Origin: a marine bacterium B5-7
GTDB lineage: Bacteria; Pseudomonadota; Gammaproteobacteria; Arenicellales; CAJQKF01
Assembly: GCA_021604525.1 (NCBI GenBank)
Contig: BQJD01000009.1
Coordinates: 1-64,000 of the forward strand
Length of the DNA stretch: 64,000 bases
Reading direction: 5' to 3'
In this document: positions 3,580 to 23,201 of the stretch, piece after piece
Position numbering within the stretch: position 1 is the stretch's first letter
Layout of the letters: each line of letters starts with the position of its first letter
Program-made: the position numbers and the translations under genes
The notes under the pieces: model-generated
Seen by the model: the letters and a program-made list of their open reading frames with translations, nothing else
What the model was told of the DNA's origin: nothing
Databases searched by the model: none

Positions 3580-3608
3580 TTGTTTTTCGAGCCTTTAGCG
3601 TTTATAGT
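3580..3608 (+). promoter_or_regulatory. Sigma-70-like promoter of the EPS regulator, nearly leaderless
   Basis: TTGTTT (3580-3585), a 17-base spacer and TATAGT (3603-3608). Start of transcription would be about 3614-3616, two to four bases before the ATG at 3618. No Shine-Dalgarno sequence precedes that ATG, which fits a leaderless message. Confidence 0.5.
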
Positions 3609-3617
3609 GTTCATAAA

Positions 3618-4223
3618 ATGAACGCCGAAGATCCAAAACAGGACAAACTCACCTTAATGATGCTGTCGGCGATCGATTCCGGGCCTGGTATCAGTCAGCG
3701 CCGGCTCGCCGGCCACATGGGTGTAGCACTCGGACTGGCTAATTCCTACATAAAGCGGTGCGTAAAAAAGGGCTTCATTAAAATCAACGAAGCACCGGCT
3801 AATCGATACCTGTATTACCTGACACCGAAGGGCTTTAAAGAGAAGTCACGTCTGACTGCGCGCTTTTTATCATCGTCGCTAAATTTCTATCGTTCTGCCG
3901 CAGAATCCTGTGAGCGTGTATTCGTAAACTGTGCAATGGATGGTGTCAGTCACATTATTCTGTGTGGTGATTCCGAACTTGCCGAAATTGCGTTTTTAAA
4001 ATCGCTCGAATCAGGGATTTCGGTTGACGGTCTGTTCGACCCGTCGGGTGAACGTAGCCGGTTTTTCTCACAAACTGTATGGCACGACATTAACAATTTG
4101 CCATCAGCTTCGTGTGTCATTACTGCATTGGCCGGTGTCGATTCGCTGAAGAAAGATCTCGAGAAAAATCGCTCGGACATTGTTTATGTGCCGGATATTC
4201 TCGATTTGAAAAACGTTTCCTGA
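3618..4223 (+). CDS. Winged-helix (MarR-like) regulator associated with EPS clusters
   Basis: 201 residues. The N-terminal ~75 form a winged helix-turn-helix: ISQRRLAGHMGVALGLANSYIKRCVKKGFIKI, then the wing NRYLYYLTPKGFKEKSRLTARFL. The C-terminal half (about 95-200) looks like a small Rossmann or CoA-binding-like domain with GDSELAEIAFLKS, suggesting a small-molecule or sugar-nucleotide sensor. Proteins with this architecture are common at the head of exopolysaccharide and O-antigen clusters. The gene sits just upstream of the ops-bearing leader and initiating transferase, so local control of the cluster is likely. Its own message is probably leaderless and ends at a terminator overlapping the stop codon. 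The ligand is unknown. Confidence 0.75.
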   Translation: MNAEDPKQDKLTLMMLSAIDSGPGISQRRLAGHMGVALGLANSYIKRCVKKGFIKINEAPANRYLYYLTPKGFKEKSRLTARFLSSSLNFYRSAAESCERVFVNCAMDGVSHIILCGDSELAEIAFLKSLESGISVDGLFDPSGERSRFFSQTVWHDINNLPSASCVITALAGVDSLKKDLEKNRSDIVYVPDILDLKNVS

Positions 4224-4240
4224 CTCGAAGCGTTTTTTTT
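4209..4240 (+). terminator. Rho-independent terminator overlapping the regulator stop codon
   Basis: Left arm AAAAACGTTTC (4209-4219), loop 4220-4226, right arm GAAGCGTTTTT (4227-4237) with one G-T wobble, running into eight T (4233-4240). The TGA stop (4221-4223) is in the loop. This separates the regulator from the polysaccharide operon. Confidence 0.8.
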
Positions 4241-4262
4241 GCATTTGCGGGAAAAGATTACC

Positions 4263-4301
4263 CGCCTGCAGTATGCGGACCAAAAGGGTTGCTGCAGGGC
4301 G
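4263..4301 (+). promoter_or_regulatory. Leader hairpin reaching into the ops element
   Basis: CGCCTGCAG (4263-4271) can pair with CTGCAGG plus CG (4292-4301) with one bulged G at 4299, closing a 20-base loop. The 3' arm includes the first bases of the ops element. Another small stem, GCGGG/CCCGC (4247-4265), lies just before it, and the two are partly exclusive. A role in pausing is inference. Confidence 0.4.
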
Positions 4302-4309
4302 GTAGCGTG
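4298..4309 (+). promoter_or_regulatory. ops element (JUMPStart core) for RfaH recruitment
   Basis: GGCGGTAGCGTG, identical to the 12-base operon polarity suppressor element of enterobacterial polysaccharide operons and preceded by a JUMPStart-like CAGGG. It lies on the coding strand, 58 bases after the regulator's terminator and 164 bases before the first operon gene. RfaH binds ops in the non-template strand of paused RNA polymerase and suppresses polarity and termination downstream. The ~33-kb one-directional operon that follows fits this use. Confidence 0.85.
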
Positions 4310-4473: not shown

Positions 4474-5856
4474 ATGCCTAAATGGTTGAGTGCGCGTGCA
4501 TCATTCGGCGTGTTGTTGGCATGTATCGATTCGATTTCGCTTTATTCATCCATAGGGATCGTTCATTACTATCGCCTTGGATTCTGGATTCCGAATTTTG
4601 ATTGGCAACTGGCTGCGATTGTTGGCGTCACGTTACTTACGCTGTACGTCATGAATGTTTACTATCTGGATCGAATGGGTAACCCGCTCCGCACGGCGAT
4701 TCGCACTTTTACCGCTGTCGCCGTGAGCGGTGCAACGATTGCTTCGGTTGTTTATGTCACTAAATCGACCGACGTAAGTACTGTTCTCTGGCGAGGTAAT
4801 CTTCCGCTTGGTTTGGTTGTTTTTGGTGTCTGGGCGTCGGTTCTTCGATATCTGGCACAGATTGCGCTTAATCGGTTCACTCGTGACCCGAATTGGATTG
4901 TCATTGGCAATAGTGAAAGAGGCCGTGCACTCATCGACGACCAGTCTCGATCGGCCATGGGCGGCAAACTTCTGCCACTTACGACATCAGAGCATGATCT
5001 CGATTATATCCATATAGAAACAACGGCTGAGTCGCTAAAAATTTCTGCACAACAAGGTACGATGTTCGAAGGTAAAGCGGCTGGAATCATACTGGCGACG
5101 GATGAAGTATTACCGAAAAACCTTGTGTCGCAATTAATGCACGCTCGACTCGGTGGTATCACGATACTTGAGGTTGCGGACTACTACGAACAGTTTTTAC
5201 TGCGTCTACCTGTCATGCAGCTTAAGGATGGTTGGTTTGCGATGTCTCAGGGCTTTGCACTCCTGCAGCATGACGTTCAGCTAAAAATCAAACGGATTCT
5301 GGATATTCTTGCAGCAAGTTTTGGTTTGATATTGTTTGCGCCCGTCTTTTTGATTGTTGCGGTCCTGGTTCGGACAACCAGTCAGGGACCGGCATTCTAT
5401 AGTCAGGTGCGTAGTGGACGTCTGGATCGGGAATTTCGATTACATAAGTTTCGAACCATGGTCACGAATGCCGAAGAAAACGGCCCTCAATGGGCACAAA
5501 ACAACGACCCGAGAATTACCCCGATCGGGCGATTGTTACGTAAGACCAGAATTGATGAGTTGCCTCAGTTATGGAATGTTCTTGTCGGTCAAATGAGTTT
5601 TATTGGTCCACGACCTGAGCGTCCGGATTTCAACAGGGAACTTAAAAAACAGATTCCATACTACGATTTGCGGCATCTTGTTAATCCCGGAATTACCGGC
5701 TGGGCACAGGTAATGTACCCTTATGGCGCATCGGTTCAAGATTCAAGAAAAAAACTCGAATACGATCTTTACTATATTAAAAACTATTCTCTTGCCTTTG
5801 ACTTATACATTGCATTACGAACCGTTCGGGTGGTGTTTTCCTGGGCGGGTCGATGA
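4474..5856 (+). CDS. Polyprenyl-phosphate hexose-1-phosphate transferase (WbaP/EpsB type), initiates the repeat unit
   Basis: 460 residues: four N-terminal membrane segments (about 1-130), a central Rossmann-like CoA-binding-type domain (about 140-240), one re-entrant hydrophobic segment near 285-305, then the conserved bacterial sugar transferase domain. Catalytic-domain signatures are KFRTM (325-329), DELPQLWNVL (from 361) and SFIGPRPERP (GPRPERP 378-384). These enzymes move hexose-1-phosphate or HexNAc-1-phosphate from a UDP-sugar to undecaprenyl phosphate at the inner membrane and start glycan assembly. It is the first gene after the ops element, as expected for the initiating step. The sugar it uses cannot be read from sequence. 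Confidence 0.9.
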   Translation: MPKWLSARASFGVLLACIDSISLYSSIGIVHYYRLGFWIPNFDWQLAAIVGVTLLTLYVMNVYYLDRMGNPLRTAIRTFTAVAVSGATIASVVYVTKSTDVSTVLWRGNLPLGLVVFGVWASVLRYLAQIALNRFTRDPNWIVIGNSERGRALIDDQSRSAMGGKLLPLTTSEHDLDYIHIETTAESLKISAQQGTMFEGKAAGIILATDEVLPKNLVSQLMHARLGGITILEVADYYEQFLLRLPVMQLKDGWFAMSQGFALLQHDVQLKIKRILDILAASFGLILFAPVFLIVAVLVRTTSQGPAFYSQVRSGRLDREFRLHKFRTMVTNAEENGPQWAQNNDPRITPIGRLLRKTRIDELPQLWNVLVGQMSFIGPRPERPDFNRELKKQIPYYDLRHLVNPGITGWAQVMYPYGASVQDSRKKLEYDLYYIKNYSLAFDLYIALRTVRVVFSWAGR

Positions 5857-9570: not shown

Positions 9571-11088
9571 ATGAGAAATTTCGACTTCGACAATCTGTTC
9601 ATCCTGGACTTGGCCAATAATCATCAAGGCGATGTAAAGCATGCACTTAACATCATTAGCTCTATTGGCAAGGTGGTCCGTGATCATGAAATCAGGGCCA
9701 CAATAAAGTTTCAATTCCGTCAGCTTGATACATTTATTCACCCTGCATCACGGGAATCCAGTGATAACAAGCATATTCCCCGATTCATCAGTACTCGCCT
9801 TGAGAAGAGTGACTACGCAACCCTCGCAAAGGCAGTAAAAGATGAAGGCATGATTACAATGGCGACGCCCTTTGATGAAGAGTCACTGGATGTCATCGGG
9901 GACCTCGGTATTGAAGTCATCAAGGTTGCCAGTTGTTCAGCATCCGATACCCCTTTACTTGAACAAATCTCCACACAGGGAAAGCCGGTTGTCGCATCGA
10001 CCGCGGGCCTGACCATCACCCAGATAGACAACCTGGTGAATCTGTTTGATTTGCGTGGCGTCGAATATGCTGTCATGCACTGTGTCGCAATCTATCCGAC
10101 ACCGCTGGAGAAGCTGAAACTCAACCAGATCGAACTATTGAGATTTCGGTATCCTGGCATTCCAATTGGTTTTTCTACCCACGAGGATCCTGACAACTAT
10201 TTGCCGGTGCGAATCGCGGTCGCCAAGGGCGCGAAGCTGTTTGAGCGTCATGTTGGCATGAATACTGACAAGTATAAGTTGAATGCATATTCCTCAGATG
10301 CGGACCAGGTAAATAACTGGATAATTGCTTACAAGGAAGCCAGGGAAATTTGTGGTGGAGAGAATAGATCACCTGCAACGCCCGAGGAGATTTCGTCGCT
10401 TAAAACACTTCAGCGAGGTGTATTCGCTAAGTCCAATATCAAGAAAGGCGCAGCAATTAACAGGCAACAGGTGTACTTCGCAATGCCATGGAAAGAAGGA
10501 AGTCTTTCCAGTGGCAAGTGGCACGATGGCATGGTTGCGGACAAGGACTATGCAAAGGACGAAGCACTGTCAGAAACTCTCGCAAAGCTTGATCCAAGCC
10601 ATAGCCAGATAATTCACGGGATCGTTCTGCAGATCAAAGGGTTATTGAACAACGCCCGAATTGTGGTAGGACCGGAGAGTTCGGTGGAGATTTCTCATCA
10701 CTATGGTCTCGACAGGTTTCGCGAATTCGGTGCAGTGATCATTGATTGCGTAAATCGAGAATATTGCAAAAAACTGCTTGTAATGTTGCCACGTCAGAAA
10801 CATCCATATCACTATCACAAGCGTAAGGAAGAGACTTTCCAACTGTTGTTTGGTGATATGGAAATTGAAGCAGACGGTCATGTCACCCGTATGAAGCCAG
10901 GTGATACATTCCTGGTCAAACCTGGAACATGGCATAAGTTCCATACCCTCGACGGTGCAATTGTCGAGGAAGTATCAACCACACACTATAAAAATGATTC
11001 GTTCTATGAAGATGAGCAGATAGCACGTTTGAATCTTGAAGAGCGTAAAACGCGAATCCCAAGTCTGGGGCGTGTTGTTGGAGTTTAG
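9571..11088 (+). CDS. NeuB-family ulosonic acid synthase fused to SAF and cupin domains
   Basis: 505 residues in three parts. Residues ~1-250 are a NeuB/SpsE TIM barrel (DLANNHQGD, IKFQF, GIEVIKVAS, HCVAIYPTP, IGFSTHE, FERHVGMN). Residues ~275-335 resemble the SAF/antifreeze-like domain (LQRGVFAKSNIKKG). Residues ~390-480 are a cupin with a full metal set: H414, H416, E420 or E421, and H455 in GTWHKF. NeuB enzymes condense phosphoenolpyruvate with an amino sugar to make a nonulosonic acid. The barrel's H-rich DRNLPGPDH-type block is replaced by NTDKYKLNAYSSD, so the substrate may differ from ManNAc. The cupin could isomerise or epimerise the acceptor. Followed 21 bases later by neuA. Confidence 0.8.
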   Translation: MRNFDFDNLFILDLANNHQGDVKHALNIISSIGKVVRDHEIRATIKFQFRQLDTFIHPASRESSDNKHIPRFISTRLEKSDYATLAKAVKDEGMITMATPFDEESLDVIGDLGIEVIKVASCSASDTPLLEQISTQGKPVVASTAGLTITQIDNLVNLFDLRGVEYAVMHCVAIYPTPLEKLKLNQIELLRFRYPGIPIGFSTHEDPDNYLPVRIAVAKGAKLFERHVGMNTDKYKLNAYSSDADQVNNWIIAYKEAREICGGENRSPATPEEISSLKTLQRGVFAKSNIKKGAAINRQQVYFAMPWKEGSLSSGKWHDGMVADKDYAKDEALSETLAKLDPSHSQIIHGIVLQIKGLLNNARIVVGPESSVEISHHYGLDRFREFGAVIIDCVNREYCKKLLVMLPRQKHPYHYHKRKEETFQLLFGDMEIEADGHVTRMKPGDTFLVKPGTWHKFHTLDGAIVEEVSTTHYKNDSFYEDEQIARLNLEERKTRIPSLGRVVGV

Positions 11089-11109
11089 CTTCTCACGCGG
11101 AGATTATTG

Positions 11110-11814
11110 ATGCTGGATGGGAAAACGGTACTTGTGGTTGTTCCAGCGCGTGGTGGAAGCAAGGGTGTGCCATTGAAGAACATACGAGCGGTCGGTGGCG
11201 TACCATTGGTTGGTCGAGTAGGGCTTGTAATCAAAGAACTTGCTTTCGTAGACAAGGCAGTTGTTTCCACAGATCATGAAGAGATTGCGCGAGTTGCTCG
11301 TACATACGGTATTGAGTCGCCGTTTTACAGATCGACTGAACTATCGGGTGATCGCGTGGGTGATTGGGAAGTTTTAACTGACGCTCTTGAAAAGATGGAA
11401 GCGTTGGATAAAACAGTTTATGACATCATTATCATGCTGCAACCGACATCACCACTGAGAACGCCAAAACAGGTTGCCGATACAGTCAAGAAACTAATTG
11501 ATGGCGAGTTTGATGCCGTGTGGACCGTGAGCGAAACCGATATAAAAAGCCATCCGCTTAAACAATTACAGGTAAATGAAAGAGGTGAAATGCAACACTA
11601 TGATCCGGCAGGCAAAAAAATCGTTGCCCGTCAGGAACTAGTTCCTCTGTTTCATAGAAATGGTATTGCTTATGCCATGACCCGCGAGTGTCTGCTCAAG
11701 AAAAAGTCAATTTATGGTGACCGATTGGGCGCGGTGATTGTCTCGGAACCTGTCGCCAATATAGATACTGAAGCAGACATCGAAAACGCCGAAGCACATC
11801 TTAAGGCGCTGTAA
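11110..11814 (+). CDS. CMP-ulosonic acid synthetase (NeuA-like cytidylyltransferase)
   Basis: 234 residues from ATG 11110, which has GGAG eight bases upstream; a TTG directly before it is less likely. The CTP-binding PARGGSKGVPLKN is intact near the N-terminus, with VVSTDHEEIA, LQPTSPLRT and IDTEADIENAE as in acylneuraminate cytidylyltransferases. It transfers CMP to the anomeric hydroxyl of a ulosonic acid. Position directly after the NeuB-cupin gene makes that enzyme's product the natural substrate. Sequence does not separate neuraminic, legionaminic or other acids. Confidence 0.85.
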   Translation: MLDGKTVLVVVPARGGSKGVPLKNIRAVGGVPLVGRVGLVIKELAFVDKAVVSTDHEEIARVARTYGIESPFYRSTELSGDRVGDWEVLTDALEKMEALDKTVYDIIIMLQPTSPLRTPKQVADTVKKLIDGEFDAVWTVSETDIKSHPLKQLQVNERGEMQHYDPAGKKIVARQELVPLFHRNGIAYAMTRECLLKKKSIYGDRLGAVIVSEPVANIDTEADIENAEAHLKAL

Positions 11815-20855: not shown

Positions 20856-20922
20856 CCGATTTAGAGTCAGTGTTGGTTAACCCAAAAGCAAGATGTTCAT
20901 ATAGGTGAACTGGAACAGAACC

Positions 20923-21792
20923 ATGATAAAACAGGTAATTGTTGGCGATGATAAGGTCAATAAAGTTCGAATCGGAGAAGGCGAGCGACTCTGTCTTCTT
21001 GCTGGCCCATGCGCAATCGAGAGTGAAACTCATGCGATATATATGGCGGAACAAATTGCTGAGATCGCCGAAAAGGTTGGCGTATCGCTGATTTATAAAT
21101 CGTGCTATGACAAGGACTGCCGGTCGTCTCCAGACTCGTACCATGGTTGCGGAATAGACAGCGGACTTGAGATTTTGCAAAAAGTCCGGGATCAGGTAGG
21201 GGTGCCCGTAGTAACGGATATCAGTAGCGCGGAATGGGTGGAAGCTACTGCATCTGTTGTCGACATGCTGCAGATACCCGCTTATCTGTGCCGGCAGACA
21301 CATCTGCTGCGTGCCTGTGCAAAAACGAAGAAGCCGCTTCATCTAAAGAAGGGTCAATTCATGAATCCCCGCAATATGAAGAACTCTCTCGCCAAGATTT
21401 ACCGCGAGGATAATCATCAGGTTGTACTATGCGATCGTGGTACGTTTTTCGGTTACGAAGATCTCGTCAACGATATGCGTTCACTCATGATAATGCGAGA
21501 GTTTGGTATACCGGTAAGTTACGATGCAACCCACTCAATTCAACAGCCAACGGGAAGCGGTAGCGTATCCCAGGGACTACGTGAATTTATTCCCGGCCTC
21601 GTACGTGCAGCTTGCGGGGTGGGAGTCGATGCGATTTTCATGGAGGTGCACGATAATCCGAGTCGTGCTCTTAGCGACCCGGCTACCCAACTCGATATAC
21701 GATTTCTTGAAAGCATTCTAAGACAAGCTGTGGATATCACGCGAATCGTTCGCGAAACTGTGGTTGCGAACCCGACAGAAGGACTCAGCTAA
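20923..21792 (+). CDS. kdsA: 3-deoxy-8-phosphooctulonate synthase (Kdo-8-P synthase)
   Basis: 289 residues from ATG 20923; an in-frame GTG at 20905 would add six. LLAGPCAIESE, YKSCYDKDCRSSPDSYHG, VTDISSAEW, IPAYLCRQTHLL, LKKGQFMNP and the C-terminal MEVHDNPSRALSDPATQL are KdsA signatures. It condenses phosphoenolpyruvate with arabinose-5-phosphate to Kdo-8-P. Differences from the usual wording (YKSCYDKDCRSSPDSYHG where most have FKASFDKANRSS) suggest a divergent copy, possibly the cluster's own rather than the LPS housekeeping one. The next gene is an atypical CMP-ketosugar synthetase. kdsC at 37853 could supply the phosphatase step. Confidence 0.88.
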   Translation: MIKQVIVGDDKVNKVRIGEGERLCLLAGPCAIESETHAIYMAEQIAEIAEKVGVSLIYKSCYDKDCRSSPDSYHGCGIDSGLEILQKVRDQVGVPVVTDISSAEWVEATASVVDMLQIPAYLCRQTHLLRACAKTKKPLHLKKGQFMNPRNMKNSLAKIYREDNHQVVLCDRGTFFGYEDLVNDMRSLMIMREFGIPVSYDATHSIQQPTGSGSVSQGLREFIPGLVRAACGVGVDAIFMEVHDNPSRALSDPATQLDIRFLESILRQAVDITRIVRETVVANPTEGLS

Positions 21793-21837
21793 ACAATTGG
21801 AATTGAGAAAAATACTGATGAGAGGGTTAATTGGAAT

Positions 21838-22530
21838 ATGCGTACTGTAATCATACCCGCCAAAAAAAAGAGCAAACGGATTCCCCATAAGAATCTTCAA
21901 TTACTTGGTGATATGACACTCATAGAGCGTTGTATCGTCAAGATGCTGCTGTGTAAAAATATCGATCGGATAGTGGTTGATACCGACTCTGATGAAATTC
22001 TCAACTTGTGTGAATCTCATTCAATGCGTGACAGCCGACTTGTGGCTCGTTCAAGGAGTGTGGAGCTTCTCGGAGATGACGTTGGCACACCCCAACTCTG
22101 CGTAAGCCTTCTGGAGCACCATGCTGATATCACCTTCCTTGGAATCATGCACAGTACTGCGCCGTTTCTAAAGGCAGGCACAATCGACAAGTGCATGGAA
22201 ACGTTTGTTAGCGCAAAAGATGAATATGACAGTTTGTTTACCGTCGAACCGCTAAATGATTATCTTTGGAAAGACAAGCCACTCAATTTCAATGTTGATT
22301 GCAGAACCAGTACCGATAATGTCGAGCTGTACTATAAATTGACGGGTGGATTCTTTGTATCAACTCGTCAATTTATTTTAGACAACAAAACATTCATTGG
22401 TAAAAATCCCCTGATATATCCGGTTCCCGTATTGGAGTCTCTCGATATAAATTATCCTGACGAACTCGAGCTGGCGCGATTGATCCAGGAGGGCATGACT
22501 GCCCATGGTAAAACTGAAATGGGCATGTGA
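21838..22530 (+). CDS. CMP-ketosugar cytidylyltransferase, variant (NeuA/KdsB-like)
   Basis: 230 residues, acylneuraminate cytidylyltransferase fold. The N-terminal CTP loop reads IIPAKKKSKRIPHKN, so the usual RGG of PARGGSKR is replaced by KKK. VVDTDSDEIL, a threonine- and serine-rich HSTAPFLK where NeuA has QPTSPLR, and SLDINYPDELELA at the C-terminus are retained. It should attach CMP to a ulosonic acid, most simply Kdo or a derivative from the adjacent KdsA. The altered loop suggests an altered substrate or a slow enzyme. The stop overlaps the next gene's possible GTG (ATGTGA). Confidence 0.75.
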   Translation: MRTVIIPAKKKSKRIPHKNLQLLGDMTLIERCIVKMLLCKNIDRIVVDTDSDEILNLCESHSMRDSRLVARSRSVELLGDDVGTPQLCVSLLEHHADITFLGIMHSTAPFLKAGTIDKCMETFVSAKDEYDSLFTVEPLNDYLWKDKPLNFNVDCRTSTDNVELYYKLTGGFFVSTRQFILDNKTFIGKNPLIYPVPVLESLDINYPDELELARLIQEGMTAHGKTEMGM

Positions 22531-22532
22531 AT

Positions 22533-23201
22533 ATGAATGATCTGATCAAACAACTAACACCTTCTGTAGTTTACGACGTACTAACCTACGACATTAAATG
22601 GAAGGATCAATTCATGCTCTCGCGTGAATTTTCTCAGTTTACCGGCGGGTCTATTTGCGGTCCGGCTTTCACAGTGCAGGGAAAGTTCACGCCGAATCGA
22701 CTGGCGAAGTACGAAGAGCGTGCCGTTGTAATCGATATGCTTGCGGCGATGGAGCAAGGGGTCATTGAAGTGTTGCAACCTAATTACCAGGGACCGCTTG
22801 GCAGTTGGGGGGATTTCACAGCGACTCTTGTCAAGCATTATGGCTGCGTTGGTGCAGTAGTAGATGGTTATACGCGAGATATCGCAGGTCTGCGGCAGAT
22901 GGACTATCCTCTATACTGTAAGGGTACGAGCCTGGTCAACGGATTCGGTAGCGGTTGGCAGATTGATAATTTTCAACAGGAAACCGTGATGCCCGGCCCT
23001 TTGGATATGCCGGTCAAGGTCCGCCCTGGTGACTACGTTGTTGGCAATGAAGATGGCGTTGTTATCGTTCCAATGGAATTGATTAACGAAGTGGCGGAGT
23101 TCGCTGACAAGCGTCTTAAAAGGGAGGAGGAGCTCAAGGCAGAACTCGCTACGGGCAAGTTAACGCTTGAATATCTCAAGACAACGATTTTCGATTGGTA
23201 A
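22533..23201 (+). CDS. RraA-like class II aldolase-family protein
   Basis: 222 residues from ATG 22533; a GTG six bases earlier overlapping the previous stop is possible. The fold is the RraA/HMG-aldolase family: GPAFTVQGK, a GDFTATLVKHYGCVGAVVDGYTRDIAG block with the conserved R-D pair that binds substrate and metal in the aldolases, and GDYVVGNEDGVVIVP. RraA itself inhibits RNase E, but proteins keeping R-D and the upstream acidic residue act as pyruvate-releasing or pyruvate-condensing aldolases on 4-hydroxy-2-keto acids. A 3-deoxy-2-ulosonic acid is exactly that compound class. Location directly after kdsA and a CMP-ketosugar synthetase suggests action on a ulosonic acid. This function is inference. 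Confidence 0.75.
   Translation: MNDLIKQLTPSVVYDVLTYDIKWKDQFMLSREFSQFTGGSICGPAFTVQGKFTPNRLAKYEERAVVIDMLAAMEQGVIEVLQPNYQGPLGSWGDFTATLVKHYGCVGAVVDGYTRDIAGLRQMDYPLYCKGTSLVNGFGSGWQIDNFQQETVMPGPLDMPVKVRPGDYVVGNEDGVVIVPMELINEVAEFADKRLKREEELKAELATGKLTLEYLKTTIFDW

Follow-up and report, generated by a model that had tools for sequence, protein, structure and literature searches.

The leader in front of a glycan gene cluster of about 33 kb in the uncultured marine gammaproteobacterium B5-7 is best explained as a composite RfaH-loading site, in which a short RNA stem-loop is followed directly by an ops element, and we place the probability of this reading at about 0.82. In the window, meaning the whole 64,000-nucleotide stretch of DNA analysed here, an exact ops 12-mer lies at a fixed spacing behind a stem-loop that covaries among relatives; the genome encodes an RfaH, and across the class the element is linked to RfaH. 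From these sequences, RfaH very probably is recruited at this operon and suppresses polarity there, and the odds are slightly in favour of the additional proposal that the hairpin stabilises the ops pause.

The ops element (GGCGGTAGCGTG) occupies positions 4298-4309 of the + strand, 74 nt downstream of the stop codon of a regulator gene (3618-4223) and 165 nt ahead of the start of the next gene at 4474. The first-pass annotation had called it the only copy in the window, which holds, and no second exact copy occurs anywhere in the 4.41-Mb assembly; 100 shuffles contained none, and when two mismatches were allowed the matches in the window were at chance level. The reversed 12-mer, used as a control, occurs twice in the same assembly; the 12-mer by itself therefore shows no genome-wide enrichment, and the signal lies in its position. 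In RfaH-less genomes from across the order, exact copies frequently fall inside genes, and genome-wide exact-ops counts, being equal to the reversed control, were rejected as evidence. The CAGGG before the element had been described as JUMPStart-like; it is actually the 3' foot of the conserved stem-loop (CTGCA-G-ops) joined to the first two G of ops, and no piece of the classical JUMPstart.

Behind the element, about 30 glycan genes lie on the same strand (4474-37811, +), as assigned from the list of open reading frames and from profile matches, in agreement with the single direction reported earlier. The first encodes a polyprenyl glycosylphosphotransferase (EPS_sugtrans; 4474-5856, +), which matches TIGR03025 with 372 bits, above the cut-off, and the remainder include sugar-nucleotide enzymes, a NeuB-like synthase, CMP-sugar transferases, an ABC exporter, glycosyltransferases and an EpsG-like polymerase. 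The terminator scan revealed no apparent strong intrinsic terminator inside 4474-37811. Two groups of genes within the cluster are of separate note. At 9571-11814 a NeuB-like synthase with a C-terminal cupin accompanies a PseF-like cytidylyltransferase, both scoring below their equivalog cut-offs, possibly representing an unusual nonulosonic acid pathway, and at 20905-23201 consecutive DAHP/KDO8P-synthase-like, CMP-transferase-like and RraA-like genes suggest that a KDO-like sugar is made within the glycan cluster.

The gene upstream of ops codes for a winged-helix regulator of 201 aa (3618-4223, +) that resembles MarR_EPS, matching TIGR04176 with 66.5 bits (E=1.9e-18), below the equivalog cut-off of 88, and HTH_24 with 35.4 bits. 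All 11 aligned relatives of the regulator also match TIGR04176 (best E 4.9e-19) and no other family matched; a literature search on the MarR_EPS regulator found no functional study. Before the gene lies a promoter-like TTGTTT-17 nt-TATAGT (3580-3608, +), conserved in relatives, and over its start codon a palindrome, GTTCAT-AAA-ATGAAC (3609-3623), the candidate regulator-binding sequence at this point being GTTCATAAAATGAAC. Among 62 loci, TATAnT directly precedes GTTCA in 47, the full TTGAC/T..TATAGT is present under a strict pattern in 35, with TTGAC often 17 nt upstream of TATAGT, and GTTCA-n-TGAAC covers the regulator start codon, right behind the TATAGT box, in 55. Several relatives (start regions of L083-L161) carry a second GTTCA-n-TGAAC copy upstream, in the -35 region. 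The conserved palindrome looks like a putative autoregulatory operator of the uncharacterised MarR_EPS family, and this arrangement suggests that the regulator mRNA is autoregulated and nearly leaderless.

A terminator-like stem of 12 pairs with a T8 tract (4208-4238, +; terminator scan) overlaps the regulator's stop codon, so that ops does lie, as had been noted, between the regulator's terminator and the gene starting at 4474. Only two of the 62 loci, the window and L122, have a terminator-like stem between regulator and ops, and a scan of 4200-4298 for sigma-70-like promoters on the + strand found none. The distance of the element from the regulator stop ranges from 40 to 192 nt among the loci. 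Because relatives usually have no terminator before ops, and the only recognisable promoter precedes the regulator, the regulator is probably the first gene of the operon; in the window, part of the transcripts most likely end at 4238.

Relatives of this arrangement were collected as 80 named loci fetched by the regulator protein alone, mostly from gammaproteobacterial and betaproteobacterial metagenome assemblies. Within 200 nt of the regulator stop, 55 of the 80 contain an exact ops and six more an ops with one mismatch, compared with no exact, no one-mismatch and a single two-mismatch case in the reversed-sequence control of the same 80 loci; many of the related loci are not phylogenetically independent and some are near-duplicates, so that such counts overstate the number of independent events. 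The resulting 62 elements (61 regulator loci and the window) all agree at ops positions 1-9 and 11, and an A stands at position -2 of ops in every one. An rfaH-like gene is found in the upstream flank of 47 of the 80 named loci, mostly ending 15-150 nt before the regulator start, giving a common order of rfaH, regulator, hairpin, ops and glycan genes. Two loci (L022 and L071, from G031 and G029) have a different winged-helix regulator of 198 aa before the hairpin and ops, with the stem TACC..GGTA, so the hairpin-ops arrangement is not limited to MarR_EPS. Five loci from other proteobacterial classes (L194, L195, L199, L201 and L202) show an exact ops 58-245 nt behind RfaH-like genes, with a different stem sequence. 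Cassette-bearing metagenome assemblies L085, L091, L120, L137 and L150 have titles such as Nitrospira, Bordetella parapertussis, Chitinophaga pinensis and Klebsiella pneumoniae, names that may be wrong.

The stem-loop of the window (TGCGG..CTGCA; 4274-4296, +) ends one nucleotide before ops, and a longer alternative pairing, at about 4266-4297, shares the same end point. In 58 of the 62 elements the gap between the end of a predicted stem and ops is 0-1 nt, which happens in 33% of dinucleotide shuffles; as this set had not been picked by the stem, the test of stem position is a fair one. Two-sided changes occur in all six stem pairs, 90.3% of cells pair as against 79.5% after shuffling, and the covariation score is 0.402 versus 0.217 for shuffled alignments (reached in 0 of 500 shuffles), with slid controls at or below 0.106. 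Base identity in the stem varies freely under conserved pairing, and at stem position four a G-U wobble is more frequent than any other pair (39 of 74 sequences). A class-wide set found with the covariance model gave the same covariation result, the stem having taken part in selection there. When this model (R2) was trained on 53 loci that included neither the window nor any member of its genus, it recovered the window element with 41.0 bits and E=8.3e-12. The possibility of a leader peptide, ATGCGG..TAG, reading MRTKRVAAGR in the window, was rejected: the frame from ATG to the TAG of ops is not kept among relatives, whose spacers measure 24, 25, 26 and 29 nt.

The prediction that an RfaH-family NusG paralogue would be encoded elsewhere in the genome was borne out. 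A second NusG-family protein of 185 aa (G000:C10:67166, G000 being the window's genome) scores 175.1 bits against TIGR01955 RfaH, for which the curated equivalog cut-off is 144.5, and 141.7 bits against NF006534 (cut-off 124), but only 62.7 bits against the NusG profile (cut-off 135.7); its sequence identity with E. coli RfaH is 35%. Its gene (L002:1462-2016) sits between hldD and gmd, neighbours named from sequence, on a different contig from the window, and the housekeeping nusG is separate, in secE-nusG-rplK (L001). The autoinhibition residues E48, I93, F130, R138 and L142 are kept. The side chains by which E. coli RfaH contacts ops are K10, H20, R23 and R73, and R73 is needed for ops recognition there (PMC5995543). 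The B5-7 protein has K10, H20 and R23, and a V in place of R73, a substitution that counts against the composite leader. In the 47 RfaH relatives with genes close to that of the regulator, position 73 is nearly always hydrophobic (R in two), H20 is replaced by N in 37 and N70 by R in all, and ops is intact. R or K at position 70 also occurs in NusG, so R70 in these proteins need not be compensation. These R73-less RfaH proteins seem to read ops despite missing a residue thought essential.

The link between element and protein was followed across 369 genomes drawn from the class, with thresholds of E<=1e-5 for the element and E<=1e-25 for RfaH. RfaH is found in 41 of 43 element-bearing genomes and in 38 of the 326 others (Fisher p=7e-30), and where element and rfaH share a contig the element lies -600 to +3300 nt from the rfaH end in 25 of 29 genomes. 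In the sample of the order, four of 14 element-bearing genomes (G022, G027, G031 and G032) gave no RfaH match; these are incomplete assemblies, and other members of their genera have RfaH. The association agrees with the suggestion of the first-pass annotation that the paralogue would control the cluster. That annotation also placed the system outside the usual enterobacterial setting, which is correct for the host, although RfaH outside the enterobacteria was already known (PMC7593976).

The enterobacterial ops/RfaH regulon, including the rfaQ, O-antigen and capsule operons of E. coli, has the identical 12-nt ops on the sense strand, likewise in the untranslated leader of a long surface-glycan operon with RfaH encoded elsewhere. 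In contrast to that regulon, the present host is not an enterobacterium and its ops comes after the gene of a MarR_EPS-like regulator; in many relatives rfaH stands immediately upstream, and the majority of these RfaH proteins have R at 70 and no R73. A 2010 study reported that JUMPstart contains a conserved stem-loop (PMC2864571), and the JUMPstart RNA (RF01707) shares the layout of stem-loop, one spacer nucleotide and ops, with the stem base 12 nt from U11 in both. Unlike RF01707, the window has no conserved 5' half (CAGCGCACUGGUAGCUG), only CAG being aligned, and the stem is TGCGG/CTGCA or, in relatives, a free variant of it. The window scores 19.1 bits, below the gathering score of 35, and membership of its leader in the Rfam JUMPstart family was rejected on this basis; a scan of 20 relatives with RF01707 gave none above the cut-off. 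Wang et al. (2020, PMC7593976) describe an RfaH cluster, CL4, that neighbours an HTH transcriptional regulator, and the rfaH-MarR_EPS pairs may belong to this same group. No ops, hairpin or operator is described for CL4 in that paper, which states that RfaH recruitment outside E. coli is unknown.

RNA polymerase pauses at U11 of ops (PMC11001881), and pausing lasts about 10-fold longer when the RNA forms a duplex 11-12 nt upstream of the paused 3' end (reviewed in PMC12288461). Counted to U11, the stem base lies 11-12 nt away in 58 of the 62 elements, the spacing of a hairpin-stabilised (class I) pause, and 12 nt away in the E. coli JUMPstart; it is therefore proposed that the hairpin holds the ops-paused complex. 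NusG-dependent pauses of B. subtilis and his-type hairpin pauses have an RNA hairpin likewise placed 11-12 nt before the paused 3' end, to which NusG-dependent pausing in B. subtilis adds a motif in the non-template DNA, read by a NusG-family protein (PMC12288461). Unlike the B. subtilis case, the motif here is ops rather than TTNTTT, and the reader would be RfaH. In the proposed sequence of events, polymerase would transcribe the regulator gene, then the short stem-loop and directly afterwards ops, and would halt at U11 with the stem-loop, 11-12 nt back from the 3' end of the transcript, just leaving the RNA exit channel. The stem-loop would hold this paused complex while RfaH, which would come in trans from the hldD-rfaH locus of a different contig, is drawn to the exposed non-template ops DNA and binds; RfaH would then displace NusG/Rho and take polymerase through the approximately 33 kb of glycan genes.

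Several other explanations bear on parts of this scheme. A chance match of the 12-mer in a GC-balanced genome, unrelated to RfaH, would be compatible with a single exact copy per 4.41 Mb, given that the reversed 12-mer occurs twice, and with the intragenic copies in RfaH-less genomes of the order. Conservation has already refuted this idea: ops stands in the same place in 61 of 80 regulator loci and in none of the controls, the ops element and RfaH are strongly associated across genomes, and the window element is recovered by a model from which its genus had been left out. It is also quite improbable that the inverted repeat ahead of ops acts as double-stranded DNA, as an operator for a protein such as the MarR-type regulator, rather than as an RNA hairpin. 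MarR-type proteins do bind inverted repeats and this one lies directly behind a regulator gene, but an operator palindrome would not keep the G-U that is commonest at the fourth pair, and it is because of these G-U pairs that the operator reading is disfavoured; the stem sequence also changes freely with pairing retained, the repeat precedes ops where the upstream gene is another type of regulator or rfaH itself, and GTTCA-n-TGAAC over the regulator start codon is a better operator candidate. The terminator-like stem across the stop codon of the window's regulator raises the alternative that the operon has its own promoter between terminator and ops, leaving the regulator outside the RfaH operon, and this stem, with no promoter recognised after it, weighs against the composite leader as well. 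Such a promoter is unlikely, if less so than an operator, as 4200-4298 yielded no candidate on the + strand, 60 of 62 loci have no terminator there, gaps of 40-60 nt could hardly fit a promoter besides the stem, and the conserved TTGAC-17-TATAGT sits before the regulator.

The most serious competitor accepts ops and RfaH but gives the stem-loop a separate leader function with no effect on the pause, such as RNA stability or processing, insulation from the ribosome translating the regulator, or descent from a terminator. In E. coli reporters RfaH is able to act on ops alone (PMC11001881, PMC13015549), and in many loci the stem lies behind a stop codon. In E. coli, pausing at ops belongs to class II (backtracking) (PMC5995543, PMC11001881); its paused complex is described as differing biochemically from those stabilised by a hairpin, and the RfaH cycle there is said to rest solely on the ops and RfaH sequences (PMC11001881), so the hairpin may be dispensable. 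Against a separate function, 58 of 62 elements keep the stem 0-1 nt from ops, as does the E. coli JUMPstart, whereas the distance to the stop codon varies over 40-192 nt; a stability element would not require fixed spacing, and the stem has no T-tract. We consider this explanation a genuine contender, though on balance less likely than not.

The JUMPstart stem-loop has been known from sequence (PMC2864571), and an agreed role for it was not found in the literature; nor was any description found of a regulator-hairpin-ops unit, of its fixed pause-hairpin spacing or its spread, or of an intact ops paired with an R73-less RfaH. A covarying stem at pause-hairpin spacing, which dozens of genera combine with an invariant ops and with rfaH, bears both on the role of that stem-loop and on RfaH recruitment beyond E. 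coli, and the leader suggests how RfaH may be loaded there. About 90 natural versions of the signal are thereby available as well, together with RfaH proteins that seemingly read ops without R73. As a tentative view, to which we give a little less than even odds, RfaH recruitment across Proteobacteria may ordinarily be a two-part process of RNA pause hairpin and non-template ops, with the E. coli JUMPstart hairpin a surviving version and the RfaH-regulator-hairpin-ops cassette an older, self-contained form that reads ops without R73. If this were true, the reading of ops would have preceded the E. coli-type set of contacts.
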